A DNA stretch of 64,000 nt, taken from Rhizophagus irregularis. Taxonomy: Eukaryota; Glomeromycota; Glomeromycetes; Glomerales; Glomeraceae. Where the stretch lies: positions 4,340,001 through 4,404,000 of the forward strand of contig NC_089437.1 of the NCBI RefSeq assembly GCF_026210795.1. The letters run 5' to 3'. The first letter of the stretch is position 1. The number at the start of each line of letters is the position of its first letter. The translations under genes were made by a program, and so were the position numbers. The notes under the pieces were generated by a model. The model saw only the letters and a list, made by a program, of their open reading frames with translations, made no database searches and was not told the DNA's origin. Positions 13,261 through 64,000 of the stretch are shown piece by piece.

Positions 13261-13262
13261 TA

Positions 13263-29038: not shown

Positions 29039-30252
29039 GGGCTCTAGGGTTCATTGGATAAACCTGACCTGAAATTTTTTCAGGTCAGGTCAGGTCAGGT
29101 TATATCAGGTTGTCTGTTTGACCTGACCTGACCTGAAACCTGAAAAATTTCAGAACTATTTTTATTAAAGTATTGAAAAAAAACGGTACAAAACTTTTTT
29201 TTTAATATAATATTATGAAAAAAAACGTTTTTGCAACGTTTTTTATTAAAACTAGTGTTCACCTGTTGTCTACAACAACAGTTAATATGTAATTCCGGCC
29301 AGAATTAAAAGATCTGCAAAGAATTTCCTTTTTTGGAAATTTGAGCAACACAATTTTTTAATTTCTCTGAAAAGTAACAGAAGACAAAATTTCCTTTTTT
29401 GGTCTTGTGTAACATTGGCGACGAATAGGAGTAGGGTTACACAATTCAAATGACTTATTTATATGGTTAATCTAAACATAACGCCCACGTGATTGCAGTG
29501 TTTTTTAATATATAGATAGATATTGAAAAAAAATATTGCAAAACGTTTTTTTTAAATGTTTTCGCAACGTTATTATTGAAATATCAAAAAAAAACGTTAC
29601 GAAACATTTTTTTAATATAATATTATGAAAAAACGTTTTCGCAACGTTTTTTCTCGAAATATTGCGATTCAACATTTTTATATTAAAATCATATAAAAAA
29701 GTGAATCCCAATACTGCAATTCACTTTTTATATATAGAATTAATATAAAAAAAGTGAGTTGCAATATCGCAAATCACTTTTATTATATAAAATCAATATA
29801 AAAAAGTGAGTTGCGGTATTGCGATTCACTTTTTTATATTGATTTTGTATAAAAAAAGTGAGTTGCGGTATTGCGATTCACTTTTTTATATAGATTCTAT
29901 ATAAAAAAAGTGAGTTGCGGTATTGCGATTCACTTTTTTTTATATAGAATTAATATAAAAAAGTGAATCGCAATATCGCAACTCACTTTTATTATATAAA
30001 ATCAATATAAAAAAGTGAATCGCAATATTGCAACTCACTTTTATTATATAAAATCAATATAAAAAAGTGAATCGCAATACTGCAACTCACTTTTATTATA
30101 TAGTAGAATCAATAGTTTCAGGTCATCAGGTCAATCAGGTCAGGTCAATCTTCATACCTGACCTGAATTTTTTTTAAAAATCTCATACCTGATCTGAATT
30201 TCAGGTCAGGTCAGGTCAGGTTACCTGAATTTGGCTGACCTGTTCGAAGCTC
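29039..30252. mobile_element. Word-terminus element with CAGGT repeats at both ends
   Basis: The left end is rich in CAGGT/ACCTG words (29070-29150), and the right end has the same words in inverted arrangement (30118-30245), closing with GACCTGTTCGAAGCTC. The interior consists of AACGTT-type hairpins (29160-29660) and a hairpin satellite (29660-30110). There is no coding capacity. It is interpreted as a non-autonomous DNA element; the class is unknown. A target duplication is not evident. Confidence 0.6.
29695..30110. repeat. Hairpin satellite (AAGTGAGTTGC...GCGATTCACTT units)
   Basis: About eight tandem units of roughly 55-60 bp each form a near-perfect hairpin: AAAAAGTGA-RTYGC-RRTAYYGC-RAYTCACTTTTT, spaced by TATATAGAATCAATATA-like linkers. 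Units left of about 29940 mostly read GAGTTGC...GCGATTC and those to the right read GAATCGC...GCAACTC, so the array reverses orientation near its centre. Confidence 0.75.
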
Positions 30253-30638
30253 TATTTACTAGTAAATAGTAATTTTACCTTTCTCCAATTTTTAATATTA
30301 TTAGTTTATAATTGATTTAAAAGAAAAAAAATTATAATAATGCAATATAACATTTCCTTTTTTAGATATAATTTATTTATTTATAGTAGAACGAATCATT
30401 AAAAATTTTTTTTTGGTGATTTTACTTTAGAGTTACGGTGACCTTTATTATAAGTAAGCAGGGTCCTATTGTATTATGGTTTAAAAAGACTCTATATACT
30501 TTTTTAAAAAATTTAGCATCAGCTTTTTCAATAGAATTAATTAAATATTTGTATAAAAAAAATGATTTTAAATATATATAGAATATAAACAAATCTATTG
30601 AATTGGATTTGTTAAATATCTGCCATTTATTTCTGCTA

Positions 30639-30822
30639 CAGTCAAACCTTTATATAACGATATGTCAGGACACATATGAAATTTTTAGAAAATATCATTT
30701 TATTAAAGTTATACCGATATTTATATGTCCTCACATATAGTAGAAAAATAAAATTTTATCGGTATATCAAGTTTTTAATAGTATATCAGTATATCAAATA
30801 TCGGTATATCGAGGTTAGACTG
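30639..30822. mobile_element. pogo-like MITE
   Basis: The left terminus CAGTCAAACCTTTATATAACG and right terminus (complement CAGTCTAACCTCGATATACC) form an imperfect inverted repeat, flanked by TA on both sides. This terminus type is characteristic of pogo/Tigger-like Tc1-mariner elements. The length of 184 bp indicates a non-autonomous MITE. Confidence 0.65.
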
Positions 30823-31104
30823 TACTTTTTTTTCATATTATTTCCATTTTTTTTTAAATTCCTTTTATCATGAAACTAAGTAACAGATTTGTTGAAGTAA
30901 GTGTATTTGATGTACAGTCAAATCTTAATATAGCGAACTCTTGATATAGTGAATTTTTCAGACAACTATAATAAATTTCTCCTTACTATAATTAAAGCTC
31001 TGAACAGGTCAGTTCAGTGCAGTTTTTTTCAAGTTCAGGTAAGAACTGAAACTGAATGAAACCCAAACCAGAACTATCCGGTTTAGTTCGATTCTATCCA
31101 ATTT

Positions 31105-32065
31105 TAAGAAAAAATGTGAAAATCGAAATAACTTGGCAACCAGTGATCGTATAAAGACAAGCAATAGCCCATTAGTATTGTCTCATCGAGACGCGTTGAA
31201 TGGTGGTAAAATCATCTCTCTAGTTTTGATATATCCTGAGATAATCAATGCTAAACATTTTTTATAAAACTAGCGATAGAATCGTATCTATTGATCCTAG
31301 AGAAATAATCTTTGCATCATTCAATAGGTCTTAATGAGACGAATCTAATGAGCTTTTTTTCATTTTTTATGATCACTACATAACGAGTTATCTTAATTTT
31401 CGCATTTTTTTAAATTTTTGAACGTTAAAAAATAAAAATTCTGATCTAAAATATAATCCATCTTCTACTAATTGTATTGAAATGATCTTTAGCTCATTAG
31501 AACTGTCTCAATGAGACAAGTTGAATGACAGTAAGATCATGTCTCTAGCATTGATAGATACCTTTCTAATACTAATTTTCTAAAATTGCTTAGCATGATT
31601 TATCTCATGATATACCGATGCTAGAGATATGATCTTACTGTCATTCAACTCGTCTCATTGAGAAGGTTCTAATGAGCTAAAGATCGTTCTAATATAATCA
31701 GTAAAAGATGGGTTATATCTTAGATCGGGATTTTTATTTTTTGACGTTTAAAAATTTAAAAATGCGAAAATTAAGATAACTCGTTATGTAGTGATCATAA
31801 AAAAAATAAAAAAAGGCTCATTAGATTCGTCTCATTAAGACCTATCGAATGATGCAAAGATCATTTCTCTAGGATCAATAAATACGATTATATCCCTAGT
31901 TTTATAAAAAATGTTTAGCATTAATTATCTCATAATATATTGAAGTTAGAGAGATGATTTTACCACTATTCAACGCGTCTCGATGAGATGATTCTAATAA
32001 GCTATTGATCGTCTTTATATGATCGCTGGTTGCTGAGTTATTTCGATTTTCGCATTTTTTTTTAA
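31105..32065. repeat. ~960-bp imperfect palindrome with six repeated modules
   Basis: The left arm (from AAAATGTGAAAATCGAAATAAC) pairs along its length with the right arm (ending GTTATTTCGATTTTCGCATT). The centre is near 31588. Six copies of a module built on AGCTCATTAGA.TCGTCTCATTGAGAC and TTGAATG-GTAAGATCATCTCTCTAG occur, three per arm, in alternating orientation. Confidence 0.75.
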
Positions 32066-32114
32066 ATAAAATAGAATAGAACTGAACCGAATGGTTCTGG
32101 TTCCAAAACTGAAC

Positions 32115-32348
32115 AGGATCCCGAGCAATACTGAAATAGGTAACAAGAAATAACGCGTAGAATAGGCTAAAATAATCATGAAAATCTTTCCTTTTTTAGA
32201 TAAATTTTGATAACGTTGGTAAGAAATATATTACTTTATTTAGTAACTGACTGACATTATCATAATTCCAGCCCTGAAAAAATGCGTAGAGCTAATAGTA
32301 AAATTTTGCCAATTTCCTATGACCTATTTATATATTGTTCGGGGTCCT
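32115..32348. mobile_element. 234-bp MITE with perfect 8-bp TSD
   Basis: Termini AGGATCCCGAGCAATACTG and the complement of GTTCGGGGTCCT match the 4.7-kb transposon at 23969-28667. It is flanked by AACTGAAC on both sides (32107-32114 and 32349-32356). It is a deletion-type or unrelated-interior derivative that could be moved by the same transposase. Confidence 0.82.
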
Positions 32349-32639
32349 AACTGAACCGAGAACTGAATCGAATTTTTGGTTCAAACTGGAACCGTTCGAA
32401 GCTTTAGCTATAATGAATTAACCAATCAAATCTCTTAAAATCTTTACTATAGCCTTATAGCAAAGTTGAGGTCTGAAACCTAGGGTTCGTTATAACAAGA
32501 GTTGACTGTAATATTAATCAATAACTTTTTTAACAAAATATAATATAAGTGATCAATCTATAACTTGTAAAACTTGTATAAATAATTACATTTAATAAAT
32601 CACTAATAGGTTTAACAATCATAATTGTTTTAATATAAC

Positions 32640-33290
32640 TAATTTTTTTATTAGATGCTTGAGCCTATTTATCTTTAAAATACCATTCCTTCCAAAAATA
32701 AATCACAATCATAATAAATTATTATTATTTTTATAGAATTATATTATTTTACTAATATATTCTTTCCAAATTTTATTTATATCTGTAATAAATATACCAT
32801 TTAATTTTACAAGTTTTATAATTACAGTTTTCCAAAAATTTAAAGGACAGAATATTCTTTCTGAATTATTTGTAACTCCCCAATTAGGATTTATCACAGA
32901 ATATTTTTCATAAGCCATTTTTGGATTATAAGAATAATATACATTCTATCTGTTTATTTGATGCTAATCATTATTTAATAGCTCTTTGAAATTTGTACTT
33001 CAAGCTATACTGTTTGTATTGCATTAATTTTTGCAAAATCTTTATCAGTTAAGATAATACAAAATTTCTTCAAATTTTGTTCTTTTAAAATTTGCATTCA
33101 ATTAGTAAGTATGCCTCTTATATTTTTGCATTTTCTAGCTGAAATTAAAAGATATCTAAGAGAAAATCCAATACCATCAAATACTTCTATAATAGTATAT
33201 AATTCTTATTCCATATTATTTGTTTTATAAGTTGCATCACTAGAAATAATATCATTATATAAAATAATGTTGAAAGGCTGAATATTAGAG
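32640..33290 (-). pseudogene. Decayed MULE (Mutator-like) transposase fragment
   Basis: The minus-strand reading has SDATYKTNNME followed by LYTIIEVFDGIGFSLRYLL, supplying the first Asp of the MULE catalytic core. About 40 residues later comes FCIILTDKDFAKINAIQTV, supplying the second Asp. Lower coordinates contain an ERIFCPLNFWKTVI...EFYKNNNNLL-like stretch typical of the region after the core. Several stops interrupt it. MULE transposases cut and paste elements with 9-bp duplications; no termini were found here. The zinc-knuckle tail at 8179-8484 is a separate, distant fragment. Confidence 0.7.
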
Positions 33291-33299
33291 TTCTATTAG

Positions 33300-33700
33300 T
33301 CTGAATACAATATATTTAATGAATAAAAAAAGGGAAAATTTTCATAAATTTAAAATTATAAATAAAATCTAAACCAAATGTAAATAAATTAATGTTTTAT
33401 TCAGACCATTTAAAGATAAATATAAGTCTTCTATATATATTGTATATAGTATATATAAAATTTAATGATATTATTTAATATATAATATATCTTTTATATA
33501 TAATGAAAAGTCTGAACTATTTCTAAAAAAAAAAATAAATTGGTTTAGTTTAATAAAAAAAATAATGAAAAAAACAAGCTTTTATACTAATTCTATATGT
33601 CTATACATTTTAGAATAAATTATTTCTAAAAAAAAAAGAAATAAAAAATATATATTAGTTTTTTTTAAATAAAAAAAATAAAACCAAAAAAAGTTTAATT
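33300..33700. other. AT-rich spacer, no gene seen
   Basis: A/T tracts only; possibly the far upstream part of the decayed MULE, but nothing is readable. Confidence 0.4.
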
Positions 33701-33719
33701 ACTAAATGAAAAATATTTT

Positions 33720-34335
33720 TACCCCATTTTTGTTAAATATTTAAAAACATTTACAAAAAATGTTTTTTTTATGAAATTATTAATAAAAAATAGTTTCACA
33801 ATATTTTTATTAAAACAATTAAAAAAATATTTTCACAATATTTTCTGTTAAAACAATTAAAAAACATTATGAAAACCATTTTTTTATCAAATTGCTTAAT
33901 AAAAATATTTTTACAATATTTTTTGTTAAAATAATTAAAAATATTGCAAGACATTTTTTTATTTATTAAATTTGCAACATTTTTATAAAATAATAAAAAA
34001 ATGTTTTTTTAATAAACAAATAGTTTTACAACTTTTTGCAAAAATATTCTTTATCTTTATTAAATTTTTTTATTAGATTCGGTAATTAGTTTAGTAAATT
34101 TACTGAAACTGATAGTAAAATTTACCAAAACTGATTGGTAAATTTACTGAAACTAATTTTATCAAAAGTTTTAGTTTAATAAATTAATTTGGTAAATTAC
34201 AAAACTGAAAGTGAAACTGCAGTTACTAAAACTAATCAATAATTTACTAAATAATTCAGTTTTAGTAAATTGCAAAACTGAAACTGATCTAATACTAGTA
34301 AAACTGATCAGTTTAATTCAGTATTTATTAATACC
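33720..34335. mobile_element. AT-rich word-terminus element (AAACTG words)
   Basis: The left part repeats AAAATATTTTTACAATATTTT-like hairpins separated by AATTAAAA. The right part is packed with AAACTGAAACTG and TTTAGTAAATT words (34080-34330). The layout parallels the 29.0 and 31.0 kb elements. The boundaries are approximate. Confidence 0.4.
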
Positions 34336-34734
34336 AATCAGAATTCTATATATAATATTATATTAAAAAATTGTAAAATTTTATTTTTTAAGATTTTTTT
34401 TTAAATTAAAAAATTTAAATTTTAATATATATAATAAAGGTAAATTTTATCTGAAATGATTTTTATTTCAATAAATTTTACTTCTATTAAATATTAAAAT
34501 CATTCTTTTAATATAATATTTTTTTTTATTTGCAATTGTCTTTTTAATTTATATGATATTTAAAAAATAGATATTGACTATTTTAGCTATATATAAAATT
34601 ATTTTAGCCAATAAAATTACTTTTATTTAGGTTAATTATATAAAAATTATTAATTTTTAAGTACTTATAAATTTTTATATACATATTTTTTGAAAATTTA
34701 ATTATTAATAATACTTGTTTTTTTATTAAATGAG

Positions 34735-34892
34735 CTGTATCTATATAGCTTTATAACTGCCCAACTGTGCATATGTGAGGTTCCAAAAAATGGGATAATA
34801 AGATAATATAAATAGCTTCCTATGTATTTATACATTTGTAAAATCTTGCTTGTTTTTTAATAAATGTGCAGTAGAATTATATAAAAAAAAAA
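34735..34892 (+). repeat. Dispersed repeat, copy 2
   Basis: Similar to 15365-15545: shared TATAACT.CCCAACTG, ATATGTG and TTTTTTAATAAATGTG.AGT blocks with an A-rich right edge. Confidence 0.45.
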
Positions 34893-36000
34893 TAATACTT
34901 GTTTTAAAGAATAAAGTTGCTGGTTTAAAATTATATTTTATTAAAAGTTTTTTAAGTGGATTTGAATTTATTATTAAATATAAATTTTTGGCATTATTCT
35001 TACTACTATTTTTTAAATTTAATAGAAGTAACAAATTTCTCTTTTAAATCAGATTTAGAAGCAACTGATGGGAAATTAGTTAGCTAATTCAACTGTTTTT
35101 ATAATTTAATATTAAAGTAAAGTGAGTATTTAAATAAATGTATTATATTTTCCCTTTTCTTAACAGTTTTTTTTTAGTATATAAATCTATTGCTAGTATT
35201 TATTTTACAGTAATTAAAGCTTGAAATAACTTAATAATTTTATATATTAAAACTTTATTGTAGTTTTATTAACCTAAAATTTTCAAAAAAATTTTCAAAA
35301 ACATTATTAACTATATCGCGAATTTTATTGTTTTATTTGGCTATGTAGAATTAAAAATAATGATGTAAATTATATGATATAAATTGTCAATAAACAAATT
35401 ATTGTTATTTAGGTCAGATTTCAAGAGAATAAAATCTTAATTAAAGTTAAATTTAATATTAAAAAAAAACGATATCTAAAATTTTTTCTTGCACCTAATT
35501 ACACGTGATATCCTTGTAGGCGATAAGTTCCGTTTGTTGAATTATAAACATTTAAATGTAATGTAACACCGATCTGTAGATCAAAATAAACGGCTGTCCC
35601 GTTTTATTGGCGTTGAACAGAATCATAACCTTTTTTTAGCTTGTACATGTGTTTATATTTGAAAAATAAATATGTATTTAATTTCGTATTTTTGTGAAAA
35701 CAGGCAAAGTTGGGTTTTATAAACAATTTTATTGGTTCATAATGATTTTAAAAAATTTCTTTTTTTCTTATAATAAATGTACAAATATTATTATATATTT
35801 AAACTTACTGCATGAAGCTCACCGTTAAACGTTTCAAAATACGACATGCAGGGAAACATATGCAAGGAAATTTACTTAATAACTACTAGCGTATATTGAA
35901 AATTTTTCTCTTAAAAAGAATGATTATTTCGAAAACTTTAATTTCCTATCCTTAATATTTTTTTTTTTTCCTATTATTATTTTACTTTCTTTTAAGAACA
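34893..36000. other. Upstream region of TPR gene 1, no gene seen
   Basis: Mostly A/T tracts. A slightly less AT-rich stretch at 35480-35660 contains ATTACACGTGATATCC. No motif can be tied to regulation from sequence alone. Confidence 0.4.
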
Positions 36001-38070
36001 ATGAAATTTTTAATTAATAATCAAATAAAAGAGGTACTTTGGTTTTTTTGGTTTTTTTTTTTGAATTTATTTATTTTAATTTTATTTATAATTTCGTCAA
36101 TTGCTCAATTACAGAAGGAAAAAGTTCCCTGTTCACCAACAGATTCGCCGCCAAATTCACCATCAAAATCTCAACCTACATTCGTTTGGACTGGAGACCT
36201 CTTGGATGTAGCCACCACATCTCAAAAATCCAAAAAATCCCTTGATGATTCTACCTCGTTTTATAAATGCCTCTTACGAAAATCTTTCAACCCTTCGAAA
36301 TTTAAATTAATCAAAGCTCAATTATTAAATGATCATAAGAAAATAGTAGAATATGCCACTCAATTACTTGAAAATTATCCAAACAGTTACGCGATTAGAT
36401 ACATTCGAGCTGATGCTTATCGAACTTTAATGGAATATAAAAAAGCAAAAATTGACCTTGATTTAGCTGTTTCCCAAAAACCGAAAAAACAGGAAGCAAT
36501 TTGTTTTAGAGGTGTTATGCAATGCTTTCTTCGAAATTTTGATGAAGCATTAAATGATCTTAATAAAGCAATTCACATGGAAAAGAATGATGGTTATGCT
36601 TATAAATGGAGAGCGTATTGTTATTATAAATTACATCGGTATGATCAAGCTCTTGAAGATATTAATAAAACCATTGATAATGGTGTAGCAGCGGATGTCT
36701 TTGCTTACATTATTCGTGCTGATATTAATCGTGAATTGAAAAATTATGATGAAGGAAAAGCTGATATCAAAAAAGCCCTAAAATTTAAATTGAATAAAGT
36801 CGATAAAGCTAATATAATTTGTAATCATGGTATCATAAATATGAGAGCCAAGTGCTATAATGAAGCTATCGAAGATTTTACGCAGGTAAATTATAAATCA
36901 ACTAATTATTAATTATACGTAATATTATATATGTTTATTTACCGTTTTTATTTTTTTTTTTAATAGGCATTAAAATTGCAACCCAATAACGCAATTGTTC
37001 TTCAAAATCGAAGTAGTGTTTATCGCACGTTAAAAAAATTAGATGAATCTCTGGAAGATTTAGAAAAAGCATGCCTCATTGACCCAAATAGCACACATCA
37101 ATATGGGGTACGTGGAGCTTTGTATATGGAAATGAAAAAATGGAACGACGCAATGAAAAATCTCAATTTAGCCATAAAACATCATCCTGACAATGTTTGT
37201 TCTTATTCTAATCGTGGAGAATTATTGGTCAAGTTAAGAAAATATGATGAAGCTTACCTTGACATTAAAAAGGCATTAGAAATTGATCCTCAACACATGG
37301 TTTCTCTTCAACAAATGACAGATGTTTGTCGAAGAATAGGAAATTATTCGGAAGCATTATCAATGGCAAATAAATCTTTAACTATTTATCCTAATAATAT
37401 AAACACTTTGTTACTTCGCTCAGAAATCTATTATCATCAAAATCTTTTTCAAGAAGCTCTCAAAGATTTAGATAATGCTATTAAACTTTCACCGAAAATA
37501 TCCACATCATATTGTTGTCGTTCCGAAGTATATTGTAAACTTAAAAATTATGATCTTGCTTTAGCTGACATTAATAAAGCATTATCAATTCGAGATTCAA
37601 ACCCTTTTGCTTATGAGATACGTGGAAATATCTATCGAAAGCTTGGCAAGTATAGCGAAGCTTTAAATGATTTTAATAAATCCTTAGAATTGCAACCATT
37701 TGACCAAAATTCAGATGATCAAATCGAAAGGAGTAATTCAGGATATGATGAAGGTTACGTTTTAATCTTTAAAATGCAAGGAGAACGAAACTTTGCAAAT
37801 TTCTACGCAAGACGTGGAGCAACACTCTTTGCATCAAACCGTTACGAAGAGGCATTATCAGATTTAAATCAAGCATTAAAATTACAATCTGAACATCTAC
37901 TTTCATTTAAAAAACGAGCATGTGTTTATCAAAAAATGGGTAAATTAGATTTAGCATTAAATGATATTAATAAATTTTTAGAACTTAGAGAAAAATACAG
38001 TAAAATTGGTCGTAAATCGGATAGTACCGCTGGAATACGAATTCGTGATTGTATTATAAAAGGAGATTAA
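36001..38070 (+). CDS. TPR-repeat protein, gene 1 of a tandem pair
   Basis: Exon 36001-36885 joins exon 36967-38070 across a GT-AG intron in phase 0 (662 residues if the first part is unspliced). The protein is almost entirely tetratricopeptide repeats of about 34 residues, more than a dozen, with typical A..YR.L..Y..A..D...A....P patterns. TPR arrays are protein-binding scaffolds; no catalytic domain is seen. A conserved loop (GYDEGYVLIFKMQGERNFA) sits between C-terminal repeats. The first 38 residues look hydrophobic, but 36034-36114 is 81 bp, T-rich, starts GT and ends ACAG, so it is probably an in-frame intron. The neighbouring paralogue has a 30-nt first exon that supports this. Spliced, the protein would be 635 residues and soluble. 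Confidence 0.88.
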
Positions 38071-40673
38071 AAAATTAGACCTAAAAAGTATTATAGAATT
38101 TTTGTTAACCTTATTATTATTGTATATTATTGCATAATATACATCATTCATTCATTCATTGAACATATTTATCAAATAAATAAATGCACGCGGGCAATGT
38201 GTTTCTGTTTCATTTTACGTTGTATATTGATTGAAAATAATAAAAGTTTTTGAATTGAATGGCACAGCGAAAACTTCTATACTTCTATCATAATCATCGT
38301 GATACCAATAACCTTTCTGTTCCACCAAAATATTCCGTTTGAGCCCTATCATTTATATAATTTATATATACTGCGATACATTGTAAATATTCAATTTCTG
38401 AATTATTGTGACGCAATAGTAAATTCGCGTTTAATTTTTTTAAACGAATGAAATTAAACAAATACTTTTTTTTGACCGAATTTCTAAATATAGCGATCCT
38501 TAAATGAGTATCATTGAATATGACAACATACGCATGCATGCGTTTCTCTACTGTGAACCGTTAAACGAATCTAATTTGATATTAGATTATAGAAAATGCT
38601 ATACCTTAATTTCGAATGGTACATACAAGTACTTTAATCATGACACCACGCACGCTTTTTGTTTCACCAACATTTATATATACACACAACGAACAAATGC
38701 GATATATTAAGTGTACTCATATTTTCGGGAGCTCCCTTCTCAAGTAATATTGTATTCAGTATTGTATTCTCAAGTATTTGTATCCCCAAGTAATGTATTC
38801 TCCAAGTATCCCCAATATTCTCGCAATTGACGCAGTAGTGAATTCGCGTGAAATTATTTTAACGAATGAAAACCAAACAAATACTGTTTTTTAACCAAAT
38901 TTCTAATTATAGGAGCCCCTTAAGAGAGAAATAATCAAATGTTTCAAATTTTCGCAAATATTTATGCGAGCTAATCTCGTGTAACTGATATGATGTTTAC
39001 GAGAATAGAAAATTAAAAAGAAGAGAAATTATAAAATAAAAATGCACGGACAAAGTAAAGTTATTATTCAAAAAGAGTGCATTACTGGAATTTTTGAGAT
39101 ATCATACATAATATTCATGTAAAGAATGGTTACCTAAAGGTACTATTAAATAAAGATCTACTTAAACGTTTCAACTCACGTAAAATTTCCCTAACTTTTA
39201 TGTAACGAAAAAAGGATAAATTTTCTTTACTACGCCATGAAATTAAACTATAATTGGTTAAAACTCAAAAGAATCTATCCAATTATATTTGACCCCAAGA
39301 TCATCATGCACGATTTTGTTCAATGATAAGAAGTTCCATTGTTCTAAAAACATTTTTTACCCCCAAAATTTCCCGCCCAACAACCTTTTTTTTTAAAAAA
39401 AAAATGGATTGGTACCGTATGTAGAAGTATTTAACTGCAAAAGAATAATTTTGTAACCAAATAATAATAATAAAAATAATGCATTAATTCTTTATATTTA
39501 TTCATTCAAGTAGGAAAGAAACGATTGAAAGAGAAAATATTACATTCAACTTCTACTTTCAACCCATTTAATAATAATTCAACGCATTCAACGCATTCAA
39601 CGCATTTCAACATATTTAACCTTATCTGATGTCTTTTAATTTGTCTGGAAATAAAACCTGTAAATAACGATTTTATATTTCCTTATTTTACCAAATTCTA
39701 AGAATCTTAAGAATCTATAAATCGATTATTATTACCTTATCATTTCAAATCTCCATGACAAGAAACAAGGTTTCACAAAAAATCATCAAAGCAATAATCT
39801 CTTTTGTTTATTCCCTCGCCTCAGACTCTAATTAGTTAAATTAGTAAGTACTCGTGTAGAATCGTATGCATTACGGAAATTCATCAACAGGAATAAACAA
39901 ACAATTTGAACAGGAACAAATATAAAAAAAAAACCGGATTTAACAGGTTTTTTCAAAAAACTTGCTGGTATGGAATATAAACAAATTGAATTTGGAGAAT
40001 AAAAAAATTTTGTCTCATTGTTATAGTTAATGTAAGTTTAATCAACACGCCTAAATGTACCTATATATAAAATCATATCTACATTAAGAAAAAATAATTG
40101 TGCTAGGAGATGTAAATATTTATGCTTAAATAACACGTAGGATGTGTCGTTGGATTATGTATGACTCGGCTTGTTTATAATCTTGGAATTTTAGATTTTT
40201 AAACTAAACTTATTTATAATGTTTTGGGGGGCATGTCTTAGAAACAGTTCAGGAAACGAAACATCAAAGAAATATCTAAATGTATCTAAATGTAGGGGAT
40301 AAGCGATTATTATTTTAAATGATGTGCATATTTGATGTGTAAACAAGTTGATATCAATCAAAACTGGTTTTTTTTTTCTAAAGGAAAAAAAAACCCATTA
40401 AAGCAAACGATATATCCCACCTATTTCTGTTTTTCATCGAAACTTCATTGAATTTGATCATACATTATTTTTTTTAAGAAATATTTTCAACCCGTAAAAT
40501 AATAATAAAAAAAAAAATTAAAAATATATTTTTTCTTTCCTTTACATTCCTTACGCTAAGAAAATTATTAATAATATTTCACGTCTTTTTATCATATTTA
40601 TTATTCCTTTGAAAAAACCCATATATAACATATCATACCAAAATTTTTGTATATATATCAAACAATATTCACT
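38071..40673. other. Intergenic region between the TPR genes
   Basis: No gene is supported. It contains a ~110-bp direct repeat (about 38397-38505 and 38824-38932), short ATTCTCAAGTA words at 38730-38815, and TTCAACGCA microsatellite units at 39570-39612. The rest is AT-rich. Confidence 0.5.
38397..38932 (+). repeat. Pair of ~110-bp direct repeats downstream of TPR gene 1
   Basis: Both copies contain TTGTGACGCA/TTGACGCAGTAGT.AATTCGCG followed by AACGAATGAAA..AAACAAATACT and AATTTCTAA.TATAG. Copies start near 38401 and 38825. Confidence 0.55.
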
Positions 40674-42981: not shown

Positions 42982-42984
42982 TAA

Positions 42985-50363: not shown

Positions 50364-50369
50364 TAGATT

Positions 50370-50540: not shown

Positions 50541-51326
50541 TAACAAGTTTTTTATACCTTTTTATTTTTTCTACTATATTCCTTGCCTTTGAAATCACTT
50601 TTCTTTATAATCATGTGATTAAATAACCTAAATATAATTATGACCAAATAACCTGAATGCACCTATTTTTATTATGTTTTATATATTAATAAATGTTTTC
50701 TATTATATTTTATGCTGGTGAGGGTTTATGGTTATTCAATTGTTAAATAGATATCTGCTTATTAATATAATGATAGTTTATAGCCATTAGACTGATTAGA
50801 ACTTCAGGTTATTGAATATCTGTTAGCTTTTCTTTATACTTCCTTTTATTGCTAAGAAATTGGGTATTTATTGGTGCCTTTTATTTCACTTTTTATTGCA
50901 AAAAAATATCATGTTAGATGGTACAGTAATTCAATGTAAATCTGTATTTAAATTTGGCCAGCACTATAGCATAATTCAGATTGATTTTTAAGGTATATGA
51001 TTTGAAGAATCCAAGCTGGCATGCTAGAAAGGCTCTATTAGTTCACCAGTTTCAAACCACTTATATGTCAACTTGGATGCTGAATTCTTATGCCTAAAGT
51101 TTTGGCCAAAATTATGGAATAGTGTTGGCCAAAATTAAACAAAATTTTACTGTACCTTACTGCGTTAATCATATGATTTAGTTTCTCAGTTTCTCGCCAG
51201 TTCCCAGTACTAGTACAATATAGTACAGTACAGCTTTAAACAGGTCCTTGTTTTCCCGCATTCAGATGTTCCTAAAAAAATTAATGTTGTTCATTGCTTT
51301 TGCTTCTGCAATTGCAGACTGAACCT

Positions 51327-51554
51327 CTAAACCCGGGTAATTGGCTTATATTTATGATCATCTCTGGGGAGATTATGTAGTAAGAGCGAAGGACAATCAC
51401 CCGAAAAAATAGCAGGTACACTTGTTTTAAGAGATGACATTCCTGAATCATATGATGGCAATGAATCATTATTTTTTATGAACTTGTTAAGGAATTGTCC
51501 ATGTTTGCTTTTGAGAAAGTTTTCGAATATTTCATTAGTTTGGAAAAGCGTCAC
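51327..51554 (-). other. Possible minus-strand exon, unrecognised
   Basis: A 76-codon open stretch (NEIFENFLKSKHGQFLNKF...SLLLHNLPRDDHKY) follows an acceptor-like TTTTCAG at 51555-51561. Composition is protein-like, but there is no ATG and no recognised domain. It may be a decayed gene scrap. Confidence 0.2.
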
Positions 51555-53763
51555 TGAAAAGTTATTTATGAATGGTAATAAAAATGAATATTATTAACAA
51601 TAAATCTTTTAGCTGGTTACAAAAAAAGATACTGTACCACCTTGTGGAACACCTTGCTGGGAGAACACGAATAAAAGGAGATTAGACCAAATTGATATTT
51701 TGTTATTGCAAATTTCTTGTTTGAGAGGTAAAACGTTGGGAGACACTTACCAGTGTAAGAGTCAACCATTTCGATTGTATGTCTGTAATGATAAAATATT
51801 TTAGAGAAAGAGAAAGAAGTTTGAGAAAACTATACTTTTCTGAATACATCGTGACTAATAGTAAATAGACTCTTGATAAACTCTGATTTAATAGCTTGTA
51901 CTACGAAAAAATTAATAAGCATAGCAAAAAAAATTTACAGCACGCGGAGAAAAAATGATTAATATGATTTTATTCATTACCTGTTACAGTATCAGTATCT
52001 AATAGTTTACGCGTTTTATAGTTTAGCAGTTAGTGTATTTAATATAGGAATTCTTTTTTTCGTAAAAAAAAATTATTTAAATTTAAAGGATACTGTTAAA
52101 ATAACTTTATGTATAATTTTAAAGAATTATAATATACTATTTTATTGACCGAAAAGTAATAATATACGGAGGAAATTTACATATCGATAATATTAAAGTG
52201 GCTTTATACAATAATTTTATGTCCGACATGTCAAAATCATTGTACTACATTTGATCGTCTCTAAAATTAAATGATTCTTTATAAAAATTACAATTTTTTA
52301 TTATTATTTCATATAAATAATATATGTTATTATTATGATTGACTGAAAATTCGCGAGCCAAGACTCAGCCGATTATCTTATATTATCCATAGGGTAATTT
52401 GGAAAAAAGCTCTATATTAAATAATAAATTTTTTCTTCTTCGATAATTAAAAGGATTCTTTTTTTTCGTAATATATAAAGTTATTATTTTGCAAGATTTA
52501 AATATTATCGGTATTTTTTGTGCGTAATGATTGAACTTTATTAATTCCATCAAGAGATTATGGTAGATAAAAATATTGAAAATATTCTTTACTATAATGA
52601 CCAATTTTAAAGTTTGTCTTTTCGTGCGAATGATGCAATATGGATAAAATTTTCCTGTTTAAAAATTTCAATAATTTTTTTACCTAAAAAAACTATTTAA
52701 CATATCTATCTAATTTAAACGTTTCTTTGAAATTTTCTCAATCCCCTTATGGCTAATAGAGTACTTATTTCTTCAATTTTTAGTATAAAAATGTTAGTAA
52801 TTCGCATAATTGAACGATAAAGATCGATCATAACGCTAAAATGCTGAAACTTAACCAATATTTTTTTTAATATTGGGTGAGTATAGAGGTAATGCACTGC
52901 ATTTAGTCAGTGCTATACTGTATATACTGTATTGATAAATTACTGATTCGAAATTTGTAATCTCGCGACGAGAAAATTAATTTATCTTTTAATGGCTCTA
53001 CGCCTCAGTATTTGATTAGGACGATGCAAGCATAAGCAATACGCTATTGTCCGTATGTGCAACATACACAATCGAATGTTTATAAAAAAAAATTCATAGT
53101 ATTTTTTTTTAAAGAAAAATATATTATAAATAGAATATATTTTGCTATTTTTTGATGCTAAAAATATAAAAGTATTATTATTTATTATTTAATATGTCTT
53201 AACGAGATAAATATCATGAAATTATTCAATTTTACATATATAAAACTGTTACCATTAAATTTCATCAATGGATGCCGAAATATATCTTTAAGGGATAGTC
53301 AAATTACCGTATATTTCGAGTAGTAATTTACACGCTATTGTTAGTCATATTACGTTGATATATAATTGATATCCTATTTAATAAAATAATACGACAAAGA
53401 ATAAATTTTCCTTTTTTTTCTTTCCTTTTTTTTTGAAACAATAACATTTTTTTGATGATTTTGAATATACTTCAAAAACTATGTCGATCGTATACAATAC
53501 TTTTTATATGTTTTTGTTAGGTTTTTGTTCCGTAATTTGACTAATTTGGTGATGATGACAATTACATTTGACTGCTGCGGAAAAAAGTTTAAATTATTTA
53601 AAGCGATTTTTCATCTCTTAAAATTTCTTATTCTCTAAAATTTAAAAATTTTAACAATATTTGAAAATAATAAGAATAATAAGAATAATAATAATAGATA
53701 TATAAATAAAATCATTTTTTTTTAAAAAAAAAAACATACAACTTCTCTAGAATATATTTTAAA

Positions 53764-55575: not shown

Positions 55576-55886
55576 TAGAATTTTTCACATTATATAATTG
55601 CATTTAATACCTCCTAATTTTTTTTATAATTTTTTTTTACTTATTATTTTAATTGGCTTAATGTTTAACAATAGACTTTTTTTTATAATATTGTCATAAA
55701 ACTATTCTGGTAAATCAATAATAAAGAAAAGAATTTGCTACGTAATCACCAAATTTTGTTGGCGTCAGATCACTTATCAAAAAACTTAAAATCTTTTATT
55801 TTCAATAGCAATATACCGATCTTTCTTGGACAAATTTTTTTCTCTTTACGAAAAATAAATAAAATTATTCTCCCAAACATTTAAAA

Positions 55887-56590
55887 ATGCCTGATAAACA
55901 ACTTTTTCTGAAACTTCCGATTCAAATATCAACAAAAAAGAAAAATTTATTCTGGTGAAGAATCATTAGAAGAAATTTCTCAGAAAAATCGGGGAGAAAA
56001 TAATCAACCATCTCCATCACCTGAAAGAAAAAAACAAACGAAAAAATCAAGTGAGCAACGTAAAACGAGATCTACTATAAAAAAAGCTACCGTCTCTTCA
56101 TCGCACGATCCAATGATTTTATCTCAAGAAGAACAAAAAAATGATGTTTTAGAAGGACTTCCTAAAAAAGAAATCGTAATCATCTCGTGAAGCTTGGACT
56201 ACAGAGGTACAGCAGAATAAGAATTAATTACATAATTTATTTCTATTTTTACTAAAAAGGGAGATTTTTTTTTTTACTTGAATAATAAAGGAATTGAAAA
56301 AAGCTCTTGGCCAATTTAAAGTAACTATTGATAAACCATCACCTAGCGAGTTTAATAAAGAATTTCCTTCTCGCTCAAAGAAAGCTATTGCACATAAACT
56401 TGATTTTATTGACAAAAAGATTAGAGAATCGTTGAGTAATGGTGATACGAACTAGACCCAACACGCGAGTTTTGCCATCATCAGTTGAAGAACAAAGATT
56501 CAGAAGAGGAACGCCAACTGCGCCAACTGATAATCGCGAGAGATTTGAACAAAATTGCGAGAATATTAAATTAATTTTAAACCTATGTTT
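55887..56590 (+). pseudogene. Decayed gene, possibly SANT/Myb-like
   Basis: Readable blocks in order: MPDKQLFLKLPIQISTKKK; SGEESLEEISQKNRGENNQPSPSPERKKQ with a basic Ser/Lys-rich stretch; SREAWTTE; after a likely intron (56207-56292) ELKKALGQFKV...FPSRSKKAIAHKLDFIDKKI; and TRPNTRVLPSSVEEQRFRRGTPT. Frameshifts near 55935, 56185 and 56450 break the frame. The REAWTTE...L..AL.QF...FPSRSKKAIAHKL pattern is like a SANT/Myb helix-turn-helix, suggesting a former chromatin or DNA-binding protein. This is a weak assignment. Confidence 0.4.
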
Positions 56591-56689
56591 AGAAATTTAA
56601 TTTTGAGAATTTAATAAAATTTGTATAATTTACTTTTTTTTTTTGTAAGCATCTTCAAAAATACGATTACATCGGACTTTAATATGACA

Positions 56690-56900
56690 TTGACCTGGAA
56701 CAGGGCGAAGGGAAGGCTGAGATCTGAAATAAATAAGTTTTCATCCATCCGATAGTATAGCAAGCGAGCAGGAAGTTATCAGACGTACAGAAAAAATAGC
56801 CAAGTTATTGGGGCTAGAAGAGCAAAATTCGAAAGTATATAATATGCTTTCTGGGGAAATTGGAGCGCTAGTATCAGCGCTAATTTTATTTTCTTCTTTT
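56690..56900 (+). pseudogene. Possible further exon of the decayed gene
   Basis: Coding-like blocks [23 protein letters not shown] and ASEQEVIRRTEKIAKLLGLEEQNSKVYNMLSGEIGAL lie in different frames. They may belong to the same dead gene as 55887-56590. No function is assigned. Confidence 0.3.
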
Positions 56901-56904
56901 GTGA

Positions 56905-57766
56905 GAAAAAAGATTGCTTGTGTTATACATACTTTACTTTGCAGAACAAGTTTGGGTTCCTTTTTTTATCTGAAAGTTTTTTTTATAAAATCTTATATTA
57001 ATTCCTTCGGTTCAGTTATAAAATTAGTATTTAACGTATTGATATTTTACAAATTCTTCATTATTTATATTATCGTTTTTAATTTATTTTCAATTTTCAT
57101 TGGCTTACAGGCGATCATCATTTCTGAATACCCCATGTATACTATATAGCACATTTATAGGAAAAAACAATATAAAATAATAAATATTTGCAATATGATC
57201 GTGTCACTTCCGTTACACAACATAATGAGATAAAAATCGTTTATATTGGTTAATTTGATTTTTTGTTATTACCGGGTTTAAATAACCTAAAACTTTAATT
57301 CTACATACTTCATCTTTAATATTTCACCTTTCAAATGACTTCACTTTCGTATATAATTAATAAATATCTTTTTTAAATGTAAAATGTTTAATAATTGGCA
57401 ATATAACAATAATATTCTATACTATTAGTACGAGCAAATATAATTGAAAAATTAATTTTACTTGCACAAATTTGGTTGTTTTTTTTAAACAATAAAAAAT
57501 ACAATAGAAATATGTTACCAGATTTATACAAATTTCCCGTGGTACCTTGCACACTTGGCATAGAGTCTTACTCTATATGTGTTAGTAGTTTTCAATTTAC
57601 TGTCATGAAATATATTTAATTTTATTGATTAAAAAATGTTTATAAAAAAGAAATCTATCAAATGAAAATTGAAAAAATATTTCATAAATAATATATCACA
57701 AATAGGAATAGAAAAAAATGTTTGTTATATACTAATAGATTGTAAAATGTTAATCAATTGAAATTT
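56905..57766. other. Intergenic spacer, no gene seen
   Basis: AT-rich. An open stretch to 57149 is a low-complexity hydrophobic frame generated by T-rich DNA and is not supported. Confidence 0.5.
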
Positions 57767-59149
57767 CTAAACCAAATTCTTGTGAATATCAGTGAAAAAA
57801 GAAGGAATTATCCACAAATCCATTCTTCTTATCATGGGTTCAGCAAAAGCAGGTATAATCAATATATAAACTACTAACATTAATAACCACTTCAAAAACA
57901 CGCCCGCGTATTTTCTAAAATTATAACCTTCCTTCTCTGCTTTCATCTTATCTTCTCTTTCAGAAGTAAAAACTAGTTCCCAAACAATCATTATTAAACC
58001 ATGTGACATGAAAAAAAATAAATGTTCACCGGTAATCATATTAAACATTCCTAAAATATAATATTCATGTAAAAGAGAACTAATAAAAAAAGCTCCTAAT
58101 ACTCCCATAGCATTGCAAAACTTTCTTGAAGTAATTCCCAAGCTAATACATAGATTCCTAAAAGGGAGATAACCAAGTTCTTTTAATGTTTCAGCAAACA
58201 TAGTATGCCAACGTGATGACCAAACTTCTCTTGGATTTTTTGATATCCAGGGATTATCAAAACAATGTTTGGTGTTAAATGTATAAGTAATAAAGTAATT
58301 TTTTAACAAAGAAAATTGTATTGGTGTTAATAAACCTGATTTGACAAGAATATGTTTTTCTGGGGTACTCGATTGACTTGTAATCATGCATCGTAAAGCT
58401 AATAAACTAAAGAGTACAATAATATCATAATGAAATGATAGGTATAAGAAAAAGAAAATAAAAAAACTAACGTAATGAAACAATGAAGCTGCAGTAAACG
58501 TAAAAATAGGAATCCCTTTCGTAAAATATTCAATCATACGAATTTGATAAGCTCTTTCAGGAACTTTTTGTGGAAAATTAGCAAATAAATATAAAACTGC
58601 TTCATAAATCATCAGCTTCCATATAAACACCAAAACACGTGATTTGGTTTTTTCATCAACTTGTTTCATAGTCGGCTCTTCGATTTCGGTCTTTGATTCT
58701 ATATCGGAATCATGACGCCAACTATTAAGTGTTAAAATATACGGAGTAAATTCTTTTTGTTGATTAATTTTGGTATCAGGTAAGTATTTTCTATTGTACT
58801 TTATAAACAAACTCATTTTAAAAGAATAAATTCCTGTGAAAACTATCACATTAGTCATAATTCCTGGATGATATTTTAATCGATAACTTAATGGAATTAT
58901 TAAATATAAAAATAATAACACTATTAAAGTATAACATCTTTTTCTCGTTTTAATAGGTTCAAGTGAAAGAATTATGAAAAGTAATTTTGGAATAAAATAA
59001 AGCGATAAGAATACTGTTGTTGGCAATTTTGGTGGAAATTCTTTTGTTAATATAGTTGGATTTGTTATCGCGAAATTTATCACATACACGAAAAGAGTTG
59101 TTGTTAAAATATAAAGTGAATATGAATCCTTCTTCGTTAATGGATGCAT
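57767..59149 (-). CDS. MBOAT family acyltransferase, wax-synthase type, single exon
   Basis: A polytopic membrane protein of 460 residues with about nine hydrophobic segments. I chose ATG 59149 (MHPLTKKDSYSLYILTTTLF); an upstream in-frame Met at 59260 adds a poor Lys/Phe stretch from AT-rich DNA. The wax-synthase-domain hallmark FDNPWISKNPREVWSSRWHTMFAETL is present, followed by a FFISSLLHEYYILGMF segment with the expected catalytic His in a membrane helix. Such enzymes transfer a fatty acyl group from acyl-CoA to an alcohol or sterol in the ER. The exact acceptor cannot be deduced. A cytosolic loop (SDIESKTEIEEPTMKQVDEKTKS) separates the N-terminal helices from the core. No disruption is seen. 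Confidence 0.85.
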   Translation of the reverse strand: MHPLTKKDSYSLYILTTTLFVYVINFAITNPTILTKEFPPKLPTTVFLSLYFIPKLLFIILSLEPIKTRKRCYTLIVLLFLYLIIPLSYRLKYHPGIMTNVIVFTGIYSFKMSLFIKYNRKYLPDTKINQQKEFTPYILTLNSWRHDSDIESKTEIEEPTMKQVDEKTKSRVLVFIWKLMIYEAVLYLFANFPQKVPERAYQIRMIEYFTKGIPIFTFTAASLFHYVSFFIFFFLYLSFHYDIIVLFSLLALRCMITSQSSTPEKHILVKSGLLTPIQFSLLKNYFITYTFNTKHCFDNPWISKNPREVWSSRWHTMFAETLKELGYLPFRNLCISLGITSRKFCNAMGVLGAFFISSLLHEYYILGMFNMITGEHLFFFMSHGLIMIVWELVFTSEREDKMKAEKEGYNFRKYAGVFLKWLLMLVVYILIIPAFAEPMIRRMDLWIIPSFFTDIHKNLV

Positions 59150-59261
59150 TTTAAAATTTTTTTTTTTTTTAAGAATCGAATATTGAGAAAAAAAATGAAA
59201 CGAGTATTTTACATGGTATTTATATACTTGAATAATGTAACGCTTTATGCATTTTATCAAA

Positions 59262-60497
59262 ATTTTTTTTACAGTTTATTAATACAATAAATCAGTACAA
59301 TTTTGTATAATTATACAATCAATGTAATGTATGCGGCAATGATCTTCAAGATTTTTGTTAGCTTAGAATAAGATTCTTTAAAATAGATTTTAAAATAAGA
59401 AGGAAATTACAGATATGGAAATCAAAGTATTTAGCCAAGTTTACTTATAAAACGTCTAATACAAAATTTTTTCGATCTCTACATATGAAACTCCGAATTT
59501 TTAGAATAGAGATTAGTATGCTATTATGTTGTCAGAACATTACATATGAAACTCCGAATTTTTATAATAGAGATTAGTAATGCTATTATGTTGTCAGAAC
59601 ATAATTACCTGTTTAATATCATTTTTTCATTTTTCATTTTTATTTTCCATTTTCACTTTCATTTTCACTGGTTCATAAGCGATTGTAGCATTTGTCCAAT
59701 TATTGATTCATTAAAAAATATTATCTGAATATTTCCGTTATATCCCTAAAATCTGGGAAATTATCTAATCTTTTAGACGTTACTTCGTATCTCGTCTTTC
59801 GCAACATACAGTAGTTATTAAATATTTAATAGTGCTTATAAAAGAAATAGTTTATATCAGTTAATTTAAATTTTTTTTTATTATGTTATTGTTGCCATTT
59901 TTTAAATAATTAAAAATTCGGCTCCTATATTATATACTCCACCTTTTAATTGACTTTGCTCGCGTATATAAAGCAGAAAAAGACGTACCTTGTTTGACGA
60001 TTTTCGTATAAACATATATAAATGTTCACTTTATTTTTGAACATTTATGTGTGAAACTCGGTATTTTGTTATTACTAAGCTGTCACATGAACGGTTCTGA
60101 TTCGTGAGAAATTCGTATTGATCACGTTACCGCATGTTATCGTATCGAAGTTGGCGCAAATCGTAAAGAGAATTAGTAGCAAAGTATGATAAACTATAGT
60201 TAATTTTTTTAAGAAATTGTAATTAGCGTTTAAATTAGCCGAATAAATTAATCCAAGACTTTTTTGCAATGTATTAGCGAGTACTCTTGACTAATATTTA
60301 AAGATTTTTTTTTTACAATACTATTTAATTTTAACAATTATTTACCGAGACATATTTTATTTAAAAATATAAAGAAATAAATAAAAAGAGCGAATCAATG
60401 TCTATAAAAACTGAAATTAAATGTTAGTTTTGCTAAAAATCAAATTAAATAAATATACTTATAAATAACTAAGAAAAATAATAAAAAATTTAAATTT
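59262..60497. other. Intergenic region with a short tandem duplication
   Basis: A 61-bp unit (ACATATGAAACTCCGAATTT...TTGTCAGAACAT) is duplicated at 59481-59541 and 59542-59603. There is no supported gene. Confidence 0.55.
59481..59603 (+). repeat. 61-bp tandem duplication
   Basis: Two adjacent copies that differ by a substitution (TTTAGAATAG against TTTATAATAG) and one inserted base. Confidence 0.8.
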
Positions 60498-61072
60498 TCA
60501 AGCTTCTCGCAAAATTATTGCCATTTCGTGATGGTACGGCAATTTTTTGCGTAATATATCCAGGGCTTTGGTAGCGTCAGTATCCCCGGATACATAATTC
60601 ACAAACATAAATATGTTAGAGTTTTGTGAGCGTACACTTGTGGCATTCAACCACCTCTGCAAGACATCATCAATGAATGCCTTTATTTCCTCCTTTTGTG
60701 GCAGACGATCACTATCATTAAAAAATTATTATTTGTAAGACTTATTAGAAAATTATAAGAAATTACTGTACATATAACCTCTATAAGCATTTTCTAAATA
60801 AAAATACAAACCTGTCCAACCTTTCCTTAAAGGATTTAATTAATCTTTCTATCTCATCAATTAATTTGTTGCGAAAATCGCCAAAGTGCCTATTGGCTAA
60901 CTGAAGCCATTCGATACTATCAAATCACATTTGATAGACCTGAAGGAAAAGACATTTTAATTCCTCCAAGAAGTCACAGCCAATTTTTGTCTGTTATTTA
61001 AATAAAAATAGCTTAATTCAAATAGAATATATTAAAAATATTACCCTATCTTGAGTTAGTTCTTCATCAGGA
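60498..61072 (-). pseudogene. 3' part of an unrecognised three-exon gene with a premature stop
   Basis: Minus-strand exons with matching phases: about 61072-61045 (PDEELTQDR), 60990-60812 (TKIGCDFLEELKCLFLQVYQM-stop-FDSIEWLQLANRHFGDFRNKLIDEIERLIKSFKERLD) and 60711-60498 (SDRLPQKEEIKAFIDDVLQRWLN...KLPYHHEMAIILREA, stop TAA on the coding strand written as TCA complement at 60498-60500). A TGA at 60925-60927 interrupts the middle exon. The protein is helical and charged, and I do not recognise a domain. No start exon was found, because upstream DNA is AT-rich. It is likely a recently inactivated or 5'-truncated gene. Confidence 0.5.
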
Positions 61073-61623
61073 GGTTATATGAGGTGAATATTAGTGTAAA
61101 GTTGTCAAATATGTATAATACCTGGAAATTTATACTCCGTAAAAATCTATAAATATACGATTTTGCACAATTTACACTTAAACATAGTTATTTAATTGGG
61201 CATATCTTAAAAAGTGGCATAAGCCTTTCATGAATAGGTAGTTTCAAAGTTTCACATCTTGAAATAATTTCTTAAATATATGATTTTAAGTAATCTACAC
61301 ATAAAAACAATTTGAAAAATACTTTATTGATTTTGTATCTTAAAAAGTTTCATAAATTCTACACAAGTAGGTAGTTTCAGTAATTTACGCTTTAGAATTT
61401 GCATAAATACATGATCTTGTATAACCCACACATTGAAAATGTACCTTAAAATATTTTGAATAAATTTGATGTAAATTTACACAAGTAGGTAACTTTAGTA
61501 ATATATTTTCATAATCTACACTCTAAAAGAATTATATAAATACATAAATACAAAGGTTTAAGCATGCCTTTATTCTAAGATAAATATGAAATATAATATT
61601 AATAATTAAAAAAAAGAATAAAT
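61073..61623. other. AT-rich spacer with loosely repeated words
   Basis: Variants of CACAAGTAGGTA.TTT.AGTAAT.TA and TTTAAAATTT.CATAAAT recur at ~100-bp spacing between 61180 and 61560, suggesting a decayed tandem array. No gene is seen. Confidence 0.35.
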
Positions 61624-61631
61624 AGTGTAGT

Positions 61632-61876
61632 TAAGGTTGCCTGTCTAAACCTCTCCAAAATTCTACAATTAGTTTCTCCAAGATTTTACTATAGTTTTAT
61701 TATAGTTTCGGCAAGGTTTTGGCAGTTTCAGCATTTATAATAAGTTTCGTCAGGGTTTGCTTTTTTCCAGAGTTTTGCCAACTTTTTAATAAGACTTTCA
61801 TATAGTTTCGGCAAAGTTTTGCTATTTCAGCATTTCGCCAACTTGCCAAAACCCCCTAGTTTCTCCAGCAACCTTA
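61632..61876 (+). mobile_element. MITE (TAAGGTTGC termini), copy B, perfect 8-bp TSD
   Basis: It starts TAAGGTTGC and ends GCAACCTTA. It is flanked by identical AGTGTAGT at 61624-61631 and 61877-61884. It is the full-length partner of 9228-9471 (reverse orientation). The interior carries spaced TTTCGGCAA and TTTTGGCAG words. Confidence 0.82.
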
Positions 61877-62023
61877 AGTGTAGTGGTTAGATCATAATAA
61901 GACTTAAAATATTAATAATTTATCTTGAAGTATTTCAGTTTGATTCTTAGTGTAAATAAAAAAATAAATAAATAAAATGTAATTAGTAAAGAGGTATTCA
62001 GTAATTCAGTTTGGCTTAGAGAT

Positions 62024-62752
62024 AGGAATTGATTCTAATTTTAAGAATCGATTATAGAATCAACTAATCATGATTAATCAAATCTCAAGATTTGATTTAA
62101 AAATTTGATTTTTAGTTTCGATTAATCAATTCTAATCAATATTATATACATAAAAATCATGTGTCACAATTTGGATGATCATGGTTTTTCACTTACAGTA
62201 ATCAAATTTTTTAATTCTTTTATCATTGTCACTGGTTAATAATTCTAGCTAGTAAATTTGACCTTGAAAATAATCAATCTGGGTCTTGAAATAACTAATA
62301 ATTATGAATTTTCATTCAATTGGCCAAATTGGCCACTTTCTAAGTCAAATTGACCACTTTTAACCATTAGAAATAGTTTCACTTAAGCAAAAACCTTTGT
62401 GCAATAACATTACACAAATTTGACTACATAGCTACTCATAAACGCATGTATTCCCTATTGATTAGTATAAGTTTTGTACACAAAAAAAGTCAAAAACTTT
62501 TTTCTATGATAGGTTATATGAAGTTAATTCTGGCTGAGCTTTAATTAAAATTTTATTTAATCGTTAAAACACAAATTTTTTAAACTATTTTAGGCCAAAT
62601 ATCAATAGAAATGATTGACTAGGATCATAAAAGATCATAAAAATGAAAAATTGGTTAGATATCAGATTCAATTTTTTCATGTGATTTTTGATTAATCAAT
62701 TCAGAATCAATTTTCGATTAATTCAACTATTGCAGAATCAATTCCAATCCTT
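62024..62752. mobile_element. Word-terminus element (AATTGATTC words)
   Basis: The left end AGGAATTGATTCTAATTTTAAG and the complement of the right end, AGGATTGGAATTGATTCTGC, are inverted. Both are built from GATTAATC/GAATTGATT words. The interior is AT-rich with TTGGCCA words near 62320. There is no coding capacity and no clear target duplication. Confidence 0.5.
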
Positions 62753-64000
62753 AGTTTAGCTCTTAATGTAAAAAAAAAACAATAAAATATATCAGAAAAA
62801 TACACAAGTAAAGAAACTAAAAGTTAGAAAAAATTATAAAGAGAAAATTTATTATTTTTACTAATGAGCTTAATAAATACATGCTATAAGCAAGTTGTAA
62901 GACATTTACTTGGATTTTATATATAAAGTTGGTAAATAGTGTCTAACTATTTATTTCATAAAAAGATATTAAAAGTTCAACAGATCCAGATATATTGTTT
63001 GAAAAAGATCTGTCAATAAATATATTGTTTGATATTTTATAGAAAGGAGTGAATATGCTACTAATGTTTATGTTATTTGTTATTGCGTAAAACTTTTAAA
63101 ATAAACCAACTGGAGATAATGATAATTAAAATGTGATTAGTGTTTCTCATGAGTTAAGTTAAGTCAAGTTTTGAATCAATTTTTTATATGATAAAATTTG
63201 TCCTATACTAATTTTTATAATACTTTAACTATATTATTTAATATTTATGTTATACGAGTCTATGCAAGTCATTTTGAGTCACATATGCAGAATACTAAAT
63301 GTAATATCTTTATATCTGATATTTATATCATTTTCACTTGATTTTTATCTAGAGGAAGTATTAACAAGTTTTATTAATCAATTAATTAAAAAAAAGTTAC
63401 CTCAGTGTTGACATTTGGCCGCGACTAATAATTTTTTTGGCCGATTTGGCCGGCCAAAATGGCAAAATGGCTAATGGCCAATTCCGGCCAAATTTTGGCC
63501 AAATAACAAAATACTAATACTTTATTAAGGCTGTATTGGCATTTGGCTGCGGCCAAATGGCCAATTCTGGTTAAACGGCTAAGTGCCAACACTGAGTTAC
63601 CTAATAAATTATCATTACTCTTGTATAAAAGTTCATTAACCAAATTTAGAAAAATAACATTCTTCTATTATCTTTTTTAACCATGCTTAGCAAATCTTTC
63701 ATTAACTAATTCTGGAACTGAAGAAAGAAAAGAAGTATGAATAATATAATTACAAGTCTTCAATTATTAATTAAAGCAAATATTTATATAAAAGGTTATT
63801 ATCACTAATATTCAATATTTCAAGTTCCTTCTACTTTTTTTTTTGACTACATTTAGCAAAAGTTTTAGTAATTAGTATTTAGATTTCAGTATTTAGAACT
63901 AAATAAAAAAATATAAATAAAATAATTATAATTTTATTAATTAAAGTAAAGATATTTAAAAGAAAATTATCAAAAAGTTTATTATTTAATCTTCTGTTTT
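62753..64000. other. AT-rich terminal region, no gene seen
   Basis: Apart from the short element at 63402-63595, stops occur in all frames and nothing is recognised. Confidence 0.5.
63402..63595. mobile_element. Short word-terminus element (TTGGCC words) with GTTACC flanks
   Basis: The inverted termini are TCAGTGTTG and CAACACTGA. The interior is packed with TTGGCC/GGCCAAA words. It is flanked by GTTACC on both sides (63396-63401 and 63596-63601), a likely 6-bp duplication. It is GC-richer than the surrounding DNA. Confidence 0.6.

Follow-up and report, generated by a model that had tools for sequence, protein, structure and literature searches.

Do the word-rich stretches found in a 64,000-bp segment of the Rhizophagus irregularis genome (NC_089437.1, positions 4,340,001 to 4,404,000; hereafter the window) represent a new class of transposon, or do they belong to a known one? 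The original prediction listed five elements (E1 to E5), each with ends packed with copies of its own short word and with a palindromic core, and regarded them as a candidate new class. In R. irregularis, two thirds of the transposable elements were unclassified before the 2024 curation, and hAT families are reported in the cited part of that work (PMC11075540). Our analysis indicates that E1, E2, E4 and E5 are probably hAT-type non-autonomous cut-and-paste DNA transposons (MITE-like), whose words would serve as subterminal transposase-binding repeats.

The four elements carry target site duplications (TSDs) of 8 bp. E1 (29010–30254) has the word CAGGT/ACCTGA, begins with TAGAAATTCC, ends with GAAGCTCTA and is flanked on both sides by TTTACTAG (8/8). 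E2 (30993–32406) has the words GAAC/AACTGA, the terminal inverted repeat (TIR) TAAAGCTYYGAAC and the duplication ACTATAAT/GCTATAAT (7/8). E4 (62017–62753) has words around TTGATT/GAATC, the TIR TAGAGATAGGAATTGATTC and the duplication GTTTGGCT/GTTTAGCT (7/8). E5 (63403–63594, 192 bp) has the word TTGGC(C), the TIR CAGTGTTGRCAYTTRGCC and AGTTACCT on both sides (8/8). None of the four contains a recognised gene; among the open reading frames of at least 90 aa, one (97 aa) overlaps E2 and has no Pfam match. YARNG is a consensus for the start of hAT terminal inverted repeats. Imperfect inverted ends starting with YARNG adjoin the duplications of all four elements, with the exception of the 5′ end of E1. 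According to their tips, the four elements fall into at least three groups.

A further family was missed by the original prediction. One copy (61632–61876) is a MITE with the word GTTTC and the duplication AGTGTAGT (8/8), and the second copy (9228–9471) lies in the opposite orientation, is 81% identical over 246 positions and is flanked by CGAGCAGC/CAAGCAGC (7/8). That one family occurs twice, each time with a different duplication, speaks for transposition. When these two copies were counted with E1, E2, E4 and E5, 11 of the 12 ends started with YARNG, compared with 1.07% of the window positions; the ends of E1, E4 and the 61632 copy were placed by hand, and those of E2, E5 and the 9228 copy were returned by a scan without a YARNG requirement.

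The ends of E1, E2, E4 and E5 had originally been chosen by eye. The combined TSD and TIR score of each of the five elements was compared with those of 150 random boxes, which were allowed to overlap the elements. Boxes as good as the element were found in 0/150 for E5, 1/150 for E2, 1/150 for E4, 21/150 for E1 and 68/150 for E3. The E1 score was thus not significant alone, and an AT-rich rival pair (28996/30322) equalled it in the same box. For this reason, the boundaries of E1 were taken from its exact duplication and its E2-like tip. Its 5′ end lies 29 bp further outward than predicted. The 3′ tip of E1 and the 5′ tip of E2 are identical at 17 of 20 bases, and this match is the only one among about 128,000 positions, apart from the tip itself, that scored above 15 in the tip comparison. 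The end motif proposed to be common to two elements was thus borne out, and it is longer than claimed. The E1/E2 tip pattern gave 0 matches in viral_contigs and 0 in genome_contigs, and the E5 tip gave 0 matches in viral_contigs. A 16-base CAGGT-array pattern matched 35 stretches, which are probably chance matches.

The whole window was also scanned for hAT-like ends (YARNG at both ends, an 8-bp duplication with at most one mismatch, and a length of 100–2000). With a TIR of at least 11/14, four matches were obtained (E2, E4, E5 and 9228–9471), compared with a mean of 0.13 and a maximum of 1 in 30 shuffles. With a TIR of at least 9/14, nine matches were obtained, compared with a shuffle mean of 1.67 and a maximum of 4 (30 shuffles). 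They included the 61632 element (TIR 10/14 and a perfect duplication) and four others (7795, 9639, 36795 and 46888) that look like chance matches. The thresholds were fixed after the elements were known, so the excess is descriptive. When YARNG was not required, the 8-bp duplication plus TIR gave 25 matches versus 13, 10 and 14 in three shuffles, which is weak alone; 10 of the 25 lie in the E1 tandem array or the two palindromes, and E2, E5 and 9228 account for 3 of the 25.

Word enrichment was assessed by the best 6-mer count in 200-bp intervals, with 12,770 intervals from 10 dinucleotide shuffles as the null, in which the maximum was 5. The count reached 7–8 at the ends of E1, 7 at E3 and 6–9 at E5, and E2 and E4 stayed below 6. 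Counts of at least 6 were also found in the E1 core and in two unrelated stretches (11851–12100 and 39451–39700). Words repeated at both ends were then evaluated with 5-mers and 6-mers against 500 shuffles per element. E1, E2 and E5 gave 0/500 each with both word lengths, where the two "ends" of E5 together make up the entire element. The enrichment was modest for E4 (13/500 with 5-mers and 5/500 with 6-mers). The 61632 copy gave 2/500 with 5-mers and 0/500 with 6-mers, and the 9228 copy gave 1/500 for the 5-mer GAAAC, with no 6-mer at both ends. E3 had no word repeated at both ends in this test. In random controls, a 6-mer score of at least 4 was reached in 2 of 400 segment pairs of 130 bp each. 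The short motif repeated inside both ends is thus strong in E1, E2 and E5, moderate in E4 and 61632, limited to a 5-mer in 9228, and absent from E3.

Exact counting gave 25 copies of CAGGT in E1, 21 of GAAC in E2 (4 of them within its core and another in a nested element), 9 of AAACTG in E3 (all within 34106–34314), only 3 of AATTGATTC in E4, and 10 of TTGGCC in E5 (8 in the left half and 2 in the right half). Motif comparison by EM yielded only vague motifs. Against a column-permuted null, E5 versus both copies of the 245-bp family exceeded the 99th percentile, and E2–E4 and E3–E4 exceeded the 95th percentile; these percentiles were left unused because the motifs are so loose. The prediction of word-packed ends stands for four of the five elements, strongly for E1, E2 and E5 and modestly for E4, but not for E3, whose cluster of AAACTG/AGTAAATTTACTG words (34093–34325) is one-sided. 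No boundaries better than chance were found for E3 within 60 bp of the predicted coordinates. A wider search gave 34015–34385 with a score of 12, but equally large boxes also reached this score (3 of 25 AT-rich and 1 of 25 unselected ones), so this pair is no better than chance either; E3 is more AT-rich than its AT-rich control boxes had to be.

The predicted palindromic core was found in two elements, in different kinds. The core of E1 (29654–30114) consists of about nine self-complementary 52-bp units in tandem (period 52, 8.8 copies). The core of E2 (31103–32066) is an inverted repeat of about 960 bp, and E2 as a whole comes close to a single long inverted repeat. When the nested element is set aside, the arms of E2 agree at 80–93 of 100 alignment columns in the five inner blocks but at 57 of 100 in the outer block, where the words lie. 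The inverted-repeat search revealed no palindrome of note in E4 and E5, and the AT-rich part of E3 has weak inverted repeats only (48 nt, 77%). The cores of E1 and E3 are weakly similar (74% over 96, E = 3e-6), in sequence that is AT-rich. Sequence related to parts of the E2 core occurs in a separate palindrome (12722–13275; 78–79% over about 80 bp, E = 2.5e-12) and at 6614–6696 (77% over 84, E = 1e-10). By eye, the ends of E2 are not visible at either place; the core sequence is therefore also found without these ends. The palindrome at 12722–13275 is about 550 bp long and has 214-bp arms that are 95% complementary, and its core sequence is common with E2.

By this comparison, a palindromic core is not a feature that marks the elements as a class. 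Four of the five elements do have words at both ends, and the cores of E1 and E2 are self-complementary, as a class defined by word ends and a palindromic core would have it. However, such a core is absent from E4 and E5, E3 lacks two word ends, and the ends fit a known design, in which words lie within short inverted ends next to 8-bp duplications. The elements are thus probably not a new class; the idea is largely refuted by the core comparison, and we regard it as highly improbable. In maize Ac, which has an 8-bp TSD, the transposase binds AAACGG repeats located in the terminal 200 bp (PMC3260210). Ac/Ds resembles the present elements in its 8-bp TSD, its short TIR, its several hexamer copies in the last 200 bp at either end and its many gene-less derivatives with other filler (PMC3260210). 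In contrast, the words and tips differ here, and no autonomous partner was seen in the window. Multiple short subterminal motifs are likewise described for other hAT elements. In Hermes, AAG(T/C) occurs 17 times at one end and 14 times at the other as a putative BED site recognised by the transposase, and structures of BED bound to DNA are presented (PMC10368747). The Herves transposase binds a CG/AATTCAT motif (PMC3143072), and the Kat1 region has the hexamer AATTCA six times, with a suggested helper role (PMC4763223). The words of the present elements differ in sequence from these motifs.

The words could alternatively be microsatellite-like expansions in AT-rich DNA that have no function in transposition. 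Consistent with this, 11 of the 24 intervals between successive CAGGT copies in E1 are head-to-tail junctions, and part of the E3 word cluster is a 22-bp tandem repeat. The 245-bp family also shows no extra conservation of its words from one copy to the other (36/45 word columns versus 161/199 others). However, no interval abuts in E2 (0/20), E4 (0/13), E5 (0/12) or either copy of the 245-bp family (0/5 and 0/6). The words occur in both orientations in E1, E2, E4 and E5, and they are placed inside ends that also bear a TIR and a TSD. Simple expansion is thus quite unlikely as the explanation.

A superfamily other than hAT also has to be considered. P elements duplicate about 8 bp. Because YARNG is given for the ends of P elements as well (PMC2820524), this motif together with an 8-bp duplication does not tell the P superfamily apart from hAT, and non-autonomous P-superfamily elements, for example Galileo-like or foldback-like ones with words serving as THAP zinc finger binding sites, are possible. 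The long inverted repeats of Galileo carry multiple THAP binding sites in the cited part of the source (PMC3688188), which is comparable to E2 only; E4 and E5 have short inverted ends, unlike Galileo. In addition, the design with a multiplied word is documented for hAT in the passages cited (PMC3260210, PMC3143072, PMC10368747, PMC4763223). A P-superfamily origin is therefore considered unlikely. The hAT assignment itself has points against it besides the E1 score and the unexceptional word conservation in the 245-bp family. A Pfam scan of the 39 stop-to-stop open reading frames of at least 90 aa in the window (34 at E up to 0.01 and 5 at E up to 1) detected no hAT, BED or THAP domain. The Pfam matches in the window included TPR, AAA, subtilase and MBOAT, and an F-box match fell below its cut-off; together with a G+C content of 27.6%, they suggest an arbuscular mycorrhizal fungus. 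The words of the 245-bp family are nearly all in one orientation rather than inverted (GTTTC/GAAAC, 6/6 and 6/7), and those of E5 spread through most of its length.

For the hAT-type elements, we infer the superfamily, the enzyme and the binding by a transposase. Word-rich ends acting as transposase binding sites, by analogy with the known hAT systems, are the likeliest mechanism. hAT transposases encoded at other loci would mobilise the elements in trans. The words in each end would be subterminal repeats, and the transposase would bind several of them at once through its N-terminal zinc-finger (BED) domains. Such multiple contacts may hold the ends and set the specificity of each enzyme, and the 8-bp duplication would arise from insertion across a staggered 8-bp target. 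The simplest account, by the same analogy, may be that each family is served by its own hAT enzyme. E1 and E2 have like tips and unlike words, which could mean that the subterminal words turn over as a set and the cleavage site stays fixed, a tentative idea that we rate as rather improbable. If it were true, the turnover would provide a natural series of switches in hAT zinc-finger specificity within one genome, and the E1/E2 pair could be used for asking how hAT enzymes shift specificity. With the hAT reading, the apparent new class becomes a set of classifiable non-autonomous DNA transposons, and the signature of a word and an 8-bp duplication offers a practical aid for naming elements in a genome rich in unclassified repeats.

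E2 is itself part of a nested arrangement. It sits between the arms of a TACAGTC...GACTGTA repeat (30913–32510), the two sides of which align roughly but give no exact empty site. A small inverted-repeat element lies nearby at 30637–30824 (TACAGTCAAACC...GGTTAGACTGTA), and its tips resemble the repeat hosting E2. The right word zone of E2 contains a nested 234-bp element (32115–32348) with the ends AGGAYCCCGARCAATA and the duplication AACTGAAC (8/8), which doubles as an E2 word and is weak alone as a TSD. The nested element, which has AGGAYCCCGARC ends, matches the ends of a 3.2-kb element (8406–11598), and its tips are in common with those of a 4.7-kb element (23969–28667).

The 4.7-kb element has AGGACCCCGAACAATACATATA inverted ends, an exact 8-bp duplication (TCCACTAC) and several open reading frames, none with a convincing Pfam match; it is possibly an autonomous transposon of another superfamily. 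A protein piece of this element found no relative in viral_contigs. The 3.2-kb element, which is split by the 9228–9471 MITE, has AGGACC ends related to those of the 4.7-kb element, the duplication ATTAAAAC and a coding-looking region that had no Pfam match in the scanned pieces. The 200-bp ends of these two large elements contain at most one copy of each tested word. A further small element may be present at 50962–51124, with TTGGCCA-flanked CACTATNNCATAATT inverted ends, whose boundaries are ambiguous since the flank is palindromic itself. A degenerate array of CCCTAATCC-like units at 11902–12052 looks telomere-like.
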